In this document: in pieces, positions 37,315 through 40,543 of the stretch | How positions within the stretch are numbered: the stretch's first letter is position 1 | How the letters are laid out: each line of letters opens with the position of its first letter | Assembly: GCA_964036155.1 (NCBI GenBank) | Contig: OZ038423.1 | Location: 22,273,249-22,337,248, forward strand | Direction: 5' to 3' | Length of the DNA: 64,000 nt | DNA from: Diploscapter coronatus | Lineage: Eukaryota; Nematoda; Chromadorea; Rhabditida; Rhabditidae | Position numbers and translations under genes: made by a program | The notes under the pieces: model-generated | The model's input: only the letters and a program-made list of their open reading frames with translations | Databases searched by the model: none | Told to the model about the DNA's origin: nothing

Positions 37315-40300
37315 TAGTGAAGCTTTGCAAAATGGAATTTTCGCTCATACAAAGAATATTTTCTTATGATAGAATAGGTTTTATTCCTGTTATTTAATTG
37401 AGTATTTTTATCGATCTTTAAAAACTTACATTGTGTTTGCAAGCTTCCTACAAATTTCCATTCATTTTTAGCTGGGTCGTATTCCTCGATTAAATTACAA
37501 AAATTTTCCGGTATAAAGTAATTTTCTTTAAATCTAAGTTAATAAATATTTCGTATAAAGATATGCAAAATCTCAGCTCACCCTCCGATTGCATACAATT
37601 TCCTGTTAGTGACAATGAGCGAATGATCTCTTCTTGCATAATTCATATCAGCGATTCGAGAAATTTGACTGTCAACTGGAGCTGAGGGGTCGAAACACAG
37701 ACAGGATTTTAATACATCACTACCACCACTAAATATATAATGATACATTATTTATCATACAAAATTAACGACCCCTGTCCTCCAGTTATGTAAATTCTTC
37801 CATTTAGCGATGCAACTCCAAAGGAATGTCTTACTGGAATCTTTCTAATTTTAATCCATTTTCGCTCATCGTCTGATAATCGATATATCTTTCCACTTTC
37901 ACGACCATCAATAACTGAATATCCATAATTACAATAATGAGTATGCTATAATGTGACCGTATAAAATTCCATCGCATGTTATTGTTTGAGCAAGTCTAAT
38001 TGGAAGAGGAAAAGCAGGTCCTGTTTGCCATTTTCCATCTATTAAAACCTGAATAGATTATTTCGTGGATTTTCATTCGATCTTCTTACATCAACTCTAT
38101 TCGAATATTTGTAGTATGATTTAGGATTCTCTCCACCCAAATAATACAATTTGTCTTTGAAATAAGCCACAGATGCATGATCACGCCATTCAGGAGGATC
38201 TGGGCCTGTAAAATTATTTGAATAGATCATTTATGGATTTGTTGATAAGACCTCTTGAAATTTGTTGAGTATTCAAGTCATATATTTCAAATGATTCATA
38301 TTCGCCGCTAATTCCAAAAATCTGAAGCTTAAGAAACTATTTAAAATAACGAACATAAGAATTCACTTTATTCTGTGTAGTTGCTACTAGATATGGATCA
38401 TAATAACTATGAAATTTTGCAATTTCTTCGAATGAGCAGGTAGATGAATTGAACAAGCATATTCTTCCTTCATCCTTATAATTATTTCGATAATAAACTA
38501 AATTATTAAGAATCGTTTTAAAGTCTCTTACTTAGCTTTCAACATAATTTCTTACGATAAAATAGAATTGCATCTGCAATAATCGCAGCTCCATAAGCTA
38601 CGACTTCATCTGGATTTATATCGGACTTTAATTTAGATCTTCCAAATCTATTTCCCAGCCTATGTCGAATTTCGGGAATTCTAGTAGATCCACCAACTAA
38701 TATCTAGATGCTGCTATTTATTAGCATATTAATAAAATTAGACTTCTACCACATAATCCAATTGGCTTGACGAAATTCGTGCTGTATTTAGTGCTTTATC
38801 AACATATACCATTGCTCTGTCAAATAAATCGCTGCATAATTCATTGAGTTTTTCCATCGAAAGCTGAACGTTGATAGCAACACCATCATTTATTTCAAGC
38901 TAAATCAATTAAATTTTTAAAGATTTCAGAGTAATCTCAACTCCATACATGAACATTAACAGGATTATTCGAGAATGACAACGATTCCTTTGCATTTCTG
39001 CATTCAGCTCTCAATCTTTTGACCAGTCTAGGTTTTTTAAAAATATCATAATCTGAAGTTTTCCGAAATTCCTCAATAACATATTTCATTATTCGACTAT
39101 CAAAGTCTTGACCGCCTAAATTTAAAATCTCAAATTTATATAAAGCTTAATGATAACCTAAATGGGGGTCCCCTGCTATAGCTTTTAACTCATATCCATC
39201 TAGCTTAATTTGAGCAATGCTTATGTTAAGAGTTCCTAAATACGATTATAGTAAATTGTTTAACTGATTTAATACCTCCTCCAAGATCGAAGATCAAAAT
39301 TTTCGCTATTCTCAACTTATGTTTTTCCATGTAGGCAATTATTATAGCAATAGGTTCTTGCAGTAAACCCTTTAATTTCAGTCCAGCCAATTCAGCCGCT
39401 CTCTTCGTTGCAGTTATTTGTCTCTCATTGAAAGAAGCCGGTACAGTGACTACAGCTTTTGTCACTTTTTGATTTGTATACTTCTAAAGTAATAAGACTA
39501 AGTTTATTAGATGATTCAATAATCAAATTTTACAAGATTATCATAATTTATATATGAAATTTGTTTCATTTTAGTTGAAATGATTGAGCATGTATTTTCA
39601 CTTTACAGCATCAAGCAATGCCAAATGATTGAAATGGTGGAAAACAGTGAACTCTGTGAATTGAAATTCAATATTATGATATATGTGTTACTTCTACTTG
39701 ATCCTTCAAATATTTGAGAATTTTCGCCGAAACTTCTTCAGGAAGAATGAACTTCTCATTTGATTTCCCCTTATTCAAAATATATCCAGCATAGTTCTAA
39801 ACTTATTTTAATTATGAATAATAGAATAACGACTCAGCATTTCTGGTGTTCACATCGAATGTCCATAATTGTCTATCATCAGCAATCAGAAGATCATTAA
39901 AAATTTCCCAACCGATCAAACGTTTCGAATCTACAAATTATGTTATTCAAAATTGAAATCTTAAAAAATTGAATATCGAACTCATATCAATTCTACTTTC
40001 ATGACATTATTTTACAATTTTATGCTAACTCAAAAATTGTAATATTTTTACTTACCATAGAGAATATTCGACAAATCAGTGTTGCTGTCCAAAGCTGAAC
40101 TGCCAACTAAGATTTCTTCCTCAGTAAATGCGACTACCGAAGGGACGATGTTTTTGCCTTAAATTATATAAATTTTGTACAAAATAAACTATTACTGTTA
40201 AAATTGAACATTATTTTCTCGAAAACATCTAATTATTATTATCGTGTCCAAAATCTGATAGCAAAAATATGGGAACAGAGAATAAGTCCAGAAAGGTCTC

Positions 40301-40543
40301 TTTGCCCTAAATTTTTCTCTTACTAATACACTGAAAGACAGCCGTACACCACTTTGCTCCTTCAATATTAAGGACAACAATATCACACTCCAAATAAGTT
40401 TCAAGTAAAATTTTAACATTTTTTCTTGAAATAATGAAGTTATTACCTTTTCCATTATCATTTGGAATCACCACAGGTCGGCCATCCTCAATAATTGCAG
40501 CACAAGAATATGTCGTCCCCAAATCGATGCCGATATAGACCAT
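37315..40543 (-). CDS. HSP70 ATPase domain fused to a Kelch beta-propeller
   Basis: Sixteen exons, from 40447-40543 and 40056-40157 to 37582-37728 and 37315-37534, give about 690 residues. Residues 1-384 are a complete HSP70 nucleotide-binding domain: GIDLGTTYSC (phosphate 1), SKRLIG with the catalytic-lysine position, KAVVTVPASFNERQ, IFDLGGGTLNI (phosphate 2), GDPHLGGQDFDSR, VGGSTRIPEIR (adenosine) and INPDEVVAYGAA. The usual linker, substrate-binding domain and lid are absent. Exon 10 on goes straight into Kelch blades with ASVAYFKDKLYYLGG, SFGVASLNGRIYITGGQG and HSLIVTNRKLYAIGG, each followed by a W or Y turn (EYDPAKNEWKFVG). This suggests ATP-driven conformational control of a propeller that binds protein. 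One join (about 39834 to 39796) is one base short, and the last exon may be spliced further. Confidence 0.85.

Follow-up and report, generated by a model that had tools for sequence, protein, structure and literature searches.

The 64-kb window (the whole stretch of Diploscapter coronatus DNA analysed here, which contains no N anywhere) carries on its minus strand, from 40543 to 37314, a gene of 16 exons whose predicted splicing yields a single open frame of approximately 691 aa residues (Table 1). The first nine exons encode the nucleotide-binding domain (NBD) of an HSP70 and the remaining seven a Kelch propeller. All of the motifs cited in the initial annotation of this locus (GIDLGTTYS, FDLGGGT, VGGSTRIP, SKRLIG and INPDEVVAYGAA) are located on the minus strand, and its count of sixteen exons and its border between exons 9 and 10 at 38556/38497 are identical to those of the splice model derived here.

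Table 1. Features of the HSP70-Kelch gene and of neighbouring open reading frames in the 64-kb window
Feature	Position	Strand	Remarks
Start ATG of HSP70-Kelch gene	40543-40541	minus	
Stop TAA of HSP70-Kelch gene	37316-37314	minus	1 base past the end given in the initial annotation
HSP70 NBD, exons 1-9	38556..40543	minus	Frame open through all exons; Pfam HSP70; borders match D. pachys relatives
Exons 1-3 (NBD)	40543-40447, 40157-40056, 39930-39839	minus	
Exons 4-6 (NBD)	39796-39692, 39483-39276, 39235-39158	minus	
Exons 7-9 (NBD)	39115-38949, 38899-38750, 38703-38556	minus	
Kelch propeller, exons 10-16	37314..38497	minus	Last ~40 residues uncertain
Exons 10-12 (Kelch)	38497-38355, 38321-38252, 38205-38090	minus	
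Exons 13-16 (Kelch)	38048-37958, 37914-37773, 37728-37582, 37533-37314	minus	
Exon 12, strongly conserved Kelch exon (PDPPEWR..ASVAYFKDKLYYLGG)	38090..38205	minus	Also behind protein kinases in D. pachys
Intron 3	39797..39838	minus	Most likely GC donor (AAT|GCTGAG) at 39838; gives relatives' length
Junction intron 9, HSP70/Kelch border	38498..38555	minus	58 bases, GT-AG, phase 1
Long ORF, DUF7656 (E 1.5e-16), P-loop GETGVGKST	45643-47121	plus	Pfam; ~5 kb from HSP70-Kelch gene
ORF related to the DUF7656 ORF	47751-48368	plus	
ORF related to the DUF7656 ORF	31893-32435	minus	
HTH/paired-like DNA-binding ORF	43888-44241	minus	Weak Pfam matches below curated cut-offs
ORF with DNA polymerase theta helicase-region helical domain	17268-17822	plus	PF21099, E 2e-10

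In the final model 14 of the 15 introns are of the GT-AG type, the sole non-GT donor being that of intron 3, where a GC donor was chosen because it restores the length observed in relatives from Diploscapter pachys (TFDVNTRN-NYAGY versus TFNVDTRN-KIAGY in P0017); the alternative, a GT located 15 bases upstream, keeps the frame and results in five residues fewer. The start of intron 4 was placed at 39691 after comparison with relatives. A first splice model of 684 aa, which employed a GT donor in each of introns 3 and 4, was superseded by the 691-aa model derived from these relatives, and the Pfam, PDB sequence and protein-database searches were performed with the first model, which is without seven NBD residues. 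Some donors are weak (for example GTCACA at intron 13), and beyond approximately residue 650 the C-terminal end is uncertain: an extra intron that may lie there, judged by eye, leads to an immediate stop, and read-through adds approximately 40 further residues. At the stop rate of 0.087 per triplet in three long introns of this gene, the chance of a random open frame of 691 codons is approximately 4.5e-28; the frame is non-random, which says nothing on its expression. At the level of sequence the fusion noted in the initial annotation is borne out, and it recurs in relatives.

Pfam HSP70 was matched by residues 4-370 of the 684-aa model (E 6.5e-99), which also matched Kelch_1 (E 1.9e-21) and Kelch_6 (E 4.5e-20). 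Only positions 2-373 of the 599 in the HSP70 profile were matched, so the protein lacks both the substrate-binding domain (SBD) and the lid, with Kelch coming next, and this coverage agrees with the original observation that the protein passes from HSP70 into Kelch repeats without either element. Six Kelch blades, as in a six-blade propeller, were counted by eye in the window protein, Pfam marking part of them only. In the PDB, the NBD half was matched in sequence by HSP70 NBDs, among them those of HSPA1L and HSC70, and the Kelch half by KLHL propellers and by designed Kelch proteins. The N-terminus (MVYIGIDLG) leads straight into the first NBD motif and by eye has no ER leader. No further HSP70 or Kelch copy was found in the window outside this gene by tblastn with 22 protein queries (E up to 1e-3).

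The Kelch part contains a single methionine, at residue 598, and because no in-frame ATG precedes it this part is not a separate gene as read. Upstream of exon 10 the same frame is closed by a stop at 38534 before any ATG occurs, and the junction intron contains stops in all three frames. Two adjacent genes are ruled out by the Kelch frame without a start together with the same order in relatives; a separate gene starting at exon 10, which the initial annotation had named among the findings that would speak against a fusion, is thus offered no start by the sequence. SL trans-splicing occurs in nematodes, and its action on exon 10 would face the same missing start.

Protein searches over 5.8 billion proteins returned 16 matches, 13 matches and the best 120 of 7979 matches; these searches reach proteins sharing five-residue words with the query within a length range, and those giving 16 matches and the best 120 of 7979 scored only candidates sharing most words. 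HSP70 and Kelch labels (precomputed Pfam) occur together in five proteins among the matches listed, all of them from D. pachys (P0001 to P0004 and P0017). No protein named for another Diploscapter species was present among the matches listed (16, 13 and the best 120 of 7979). Direct comparison of 25 HSP70-bearing D. pachys proteins revealed an NBD followed by Kelch in 14, by an SBD in four and by neither in seven, 14/25 not being an unbiased rate because the 25 were gathered partly by Kelch similarity. The alignment with the window protein spans the junction in P0017, P0002 and the second unit of P0001, and in P0004 the NBD runs on into blade 1, where the model ends. Same-order relatives are 43-65% identical to the window protein in the NBD and 42-74% in Kelch stretches, and the nearest NBD among the matches listed, none of which is the window protein itself, is that of P0011 (67% over 298 columns). 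The description of the two domains as directly joined holds for the window copy but not for several relatives, in which a linker of roughly 20-45 residues, often Asn-rich, lies between them. Separately, the second halves of P0003, P0012, P0030 and P0042 show the NBD joined to a second, divergent HSP70-like unit, no more than 24-34% identical to the NBD over the matched stretch, and AIDIGTSKCKIA... was found in three of the second units in these models.

The Kelch cassette also stands behind a protein kinase in P0004, P0013, P0014 and P0018, and in P0020 behind an N-terminal region that matches no Pfam family; no BTB-Kelch relative of the cassette was found among the 13 matches listed of a length-limited search. 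Many D. pachys models contain a partial cassette in which exon 12 is kept and the remainder is out of frame or has exons skipped, and those models of relatives in which exon 9 is followed at once by exon 12 remain in frame. Such in-frame jumps and the phase-1 junction intron would fit exon shuffling via phase-1 introns.

In the predicted structure of P0017 the NBD fold is preserved and the linker is of low confidence, a feature of the model that argues for tethering over tight allostery. The Kelch fold was judged from the P0002 model alone, because NBD chains filled the structure-match list of P0017; the best fold matches of its Kelch half were KLHL propellers and designed Kelch proteins, and the model is poor beyond the Kelch part (mean pLDDT 62.3). 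KLHL adaptors of the BTB-BACK-Kelch type, such as KLHL20, are, with the designed proteins, the closest known counterparts of this half in both sequence and fold, but the position held by BTB-BACK in those adaptors is taken here by a protein kinase or by an HSP70 NBD.

A tree of NBDs was constructed from 36 of 39 units, three (the first unit of P0001, P0002 and P0042) being dropped as too short, and its ten canonical HSP70 rows were our own selection from the best 120 of 7979 matches. All 14 Kelch-bearing units and five Kelch-less rows formed one 19-row set (support 100/100), outside of which lie the four SBD-bearing Diploscapter units and the ten canonical HSP70s. On this tree the Kelch label requires at least three changes, a number that a single gain plus two losses would satisfy; the set has an unresolved base, with P0001's second unit forming a long row. 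A long-branch warning was obtained for the 36-unit tree, and in a second tree without P0039, P0040, P0041 and the second unit of P0001 the split holds at 100/100 (18/32 rows). The Kelch-less P0028, P0030 and P0027b branch first in this second tree with moderate support (86/74, 87/86), and the simplest reading is therefore that Kelch was gained once, after these three had split off, in which case P0023 and P0031 would be Kelch losses or cut models.

Thirteen residues of the nucleotide pocket and five coupling residues (DnaK D148, R151, R167, N170 and T173) were taken from passages of PMC12406271 and PMC7289447; 13 of the 15 nucleotide-contact residues given in the former were counted, N13 and Q343 being omitted because DnaK differs there from eukaryotic HSP70s. 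The pocket was retained at 12/13 positions in the window protein, 151/172 cells in the other Kelch-bearing units, 47/52 in the SBD-bearing paralogues and 130/130 in canonical HSP70s, and the coupling residues, in the same order, at 0/5, 14/75, 12/20 and 46/50. Fisher's test of pocket versus coupling returned 3e-26 for the Kelch-bearing group and 0.005 for each of the SBD-bearing and canonical groups. These values are descriptive only: the test takes no account of shared ancestry, and common descent means that the residues counted in different units do not represent independent events. Kelch-bearing and SBD-bearing units have similar identity to the reference (0.42 and 0.44, respectively), so the loss of coupling residues is not one of general decay. 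Judged by these aligned positions, the NBD of the Kelch-bearing units has lost residues that couple HSP70 to its SBD and to J-proteins.

Both coupling arginines are among these residues. R167 is Arg in 0/16 Kelch-bearing units (Gly in the window protein), in 4/4 SBD-bearing units and in 9/10 canonical rows (Gly in P0088), while the position of R151 is occupied by Ile or Thr in 16/16 Kelch-bearing units and by Arg in 4/4 SBD-bearing and 10/10 canonical units, and is basic in four Kelch-less rows (P0028, P0030, P0042 and P0027b). Not every coupling site follows a reading of the NBD as a released switch, since N170 is lost in 4/4 SBD-bearing units too, and likewise in every Kelch-less row of the clade, and T173 is retained in 13/15 other Kelch-bearing units; R167 is lost in 5/6 Kelch-less rows of the clade, and its loss may thus predate Kelch. 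The ribose-contact Glu (DnaK E267) is replaced by Lys or Arg in 15/15 Kelch-bearing units with a letter there, and is lost in 4/4 SBD-bearing paralogues and in every Diploscapter unit with a letter at this position. At the position of Asp206 (HSPA8 numbering) the window copy carries Asn, and the second unit of P0001 is degenerate, having lost several catalytic residues; some copies may therefore not hydrolyse ATP.

Compared to canonical HSP70s (HSPA8, DnaK), the window protein shares the NBD fold and most nucleotide-pocket residues but is without the SBD, the lid and the coupling arginines. An HSP70 NBD without an SBD is also found in HSPA13 (STCH), which, in the passages of PMC9691929 concerned with it, works in cells in this form. 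HSPA13 is said there to keep most J-domain contact sites, whereas the window protein is without the contact arginine, and it is an ER protein, whereas the window protein has no ER leader and carries a propeller after the NBD. The SBD-less NBD itself is thus already known, and what is new here is an HSP70 NBD with a propeller where the SBD would be. The initial annotation was aware of no described family with HSP70 followed by Kelch, and none was found in the literature searched, most subscription papers being outside its scope; the Kelch passages of PMC6826867, which mentions Diploscapter and kelch, name a C. elegans protein, and PMC11139335, a histone paper, contains both words.

Based on the combined domain, phylogenetic and residue data, we conclude that this single 16-exon frame of an HSP70 NBD and a KLHL-type Kelch part probably specifies an ATP-binding switch rather than a chaperone, one whose propeller would hold partners and which has been freed from J-protein and SBD control. 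Assuming that the gene is expressed, the HSP70 head would bind or slowly hydrolyse ATP unaided, with no tuning by a J-protein or SBD, the Kelch face would, in the manner of KLHL propellers, bind peptides from partner proteins, and the nucleotide state of the head would alter what the propeller binds. The Kelch cassette would be a common reader, set behind an HSP70 head or a protein kinase head within one genome. The earlier proposal of an ATP-gated switch coupled to a protein-binding propeller is retained here in this conditional form, 12/13 pocket residues being kept in the window copy. In textbooks HSP70 exemplifies an ATP-binding domain that is tied to one kind of substrate domain. A branch of animal HSP70s with a beta-propeller in that position, most of the nucleotide pocket retained and the arginines that worked with the former partner lost, would amount to an experiment of nature on what this motor is able to drive.

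A broader proposal, which we put forward only tentatively, is a modular recognition system in which a single, fast-evolving Kelch reader is shuffled via a phase-1 intron behind interchangeable ATP-driven heads (the actin-fold switch of HSP70 or a protein kinase), and in which the HSP70 head, once a chaperone motor, may have become the effector of a lineage-specific family of stress or immune receptors.

It is also conceivable, albeit unlikely, that the protein is a pseudo-chaperone scaffold, whose non-switching NBD still docks nucleotide-exchange factors or other HSP70 partners, so that the HSP70 machinery is brought to Kelch-bound partners or titrated there. The NBD fold that is intact in the P0017 model despite the missing coupling arginines, the Asn at position 206 of the window copy and the precedent of HSPA13 (in the passages of PMC9691929 cited above) are all compatible with such a role, but the far better retention of nucleotide contacts than of coupling sites (151/172 versus 14/75) is unexpected if nucleotide binding is idle. 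That many copies, the window copy included, are decaying duplicates without function appears improbable: the GC donor in intron 3, weak donors such as that of intron 13, the D. pachys models that skip exons or run out of frame and the degenerate second unit of P0001 would be expected of such copies, but 691 codons open over 16 exons, a pocket with 12/13 residues in place and an order that lasts in relatives at the above-mentioned levels of identity would not.

The switch reading must also be set against the published account of the Diploscapter Hsp70 expansion. Weinstein et al. 2019 (PMC6872716) described a 59-gene Diploscapter Hsp70 cluster (Cluster III) with positive selection at its root, interpreted as heat adaptation, and the main text of this paper does not contain the word 'kelch'. 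WR25_05901 (isoform J there), a named Diploscapter branch of its tree, is the gene of P0030 (isoform E here), which belongs to the 100/100 set of the window gene, apart from canonical HSP70. We therefore considered whether the window gene encodes one more heat-adaptive chaperone, as the counting of this cluster as Hsp70 and its link to thermotolerance would imply, and regard this as very improbable given the absence of an SBD or lid and of R167 and R151 in 16/16 Kelch-bearing units. PMC6872716 treats the cluster as chaperones, whereas Kelch follows the NBD in 14/25 of the D. pachys proteins examined here, which were gathered partly by Kelch similarity. A fast-evolving recognition family, acting in stress or immunity, would account for the expansion and for the positive selection published for the cluster root better than a set of spare chaperones would, and an expansion called heat adaptation from domain counts is likely in good part something else. 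Scarcely credible, lastly, is the ubiquitin-ligase adaptor with an ATP-gated substrate receptor suggested in the initial annotation: the propeller is of the KLHL type seen in CUL3 adaptors, but the resemblance is restricted to the Kelch half, since BTB, BACK, F-box and RING are absent from the 15 Pfam families listed for the window protein (E up to 0.1) and no BTB, BACK or F-box was detected by Pfam in the ten D. pachys relatives scanned.

Concerning the surroundings of the gene, the long DUF7656 ORF is perhaps an AIG1-like GTPase. No AIG1 match was obtained for it by Pfam. AIG1-like GTPases have been reported in Diploscapter in PMC6872716. Two copies of a long-ORF gene are carried by a large broken palindrome (30356-33288 and 46898-49771) that flanks the HSP70-Kelch gene; its inverted arms reach 1372 bases (94%) and 543 bases (100%), with approximately 13.6 kb between the innermost arms. 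A fragment at 50177-50611 on the minus strand, for which there was no Pfam match, is similar to the final part of a reverse transcriptase from a non-LTR retrotransposon, and the HTH/paired-like ORF is perhaps a mariner-like transposase fragment. A second, tighter palindrome at 33433-35311, with arms of 371 bases (95%), 326 bases (92%) and 112 bases (88%) and a short spacer, is possibly a foldback element.
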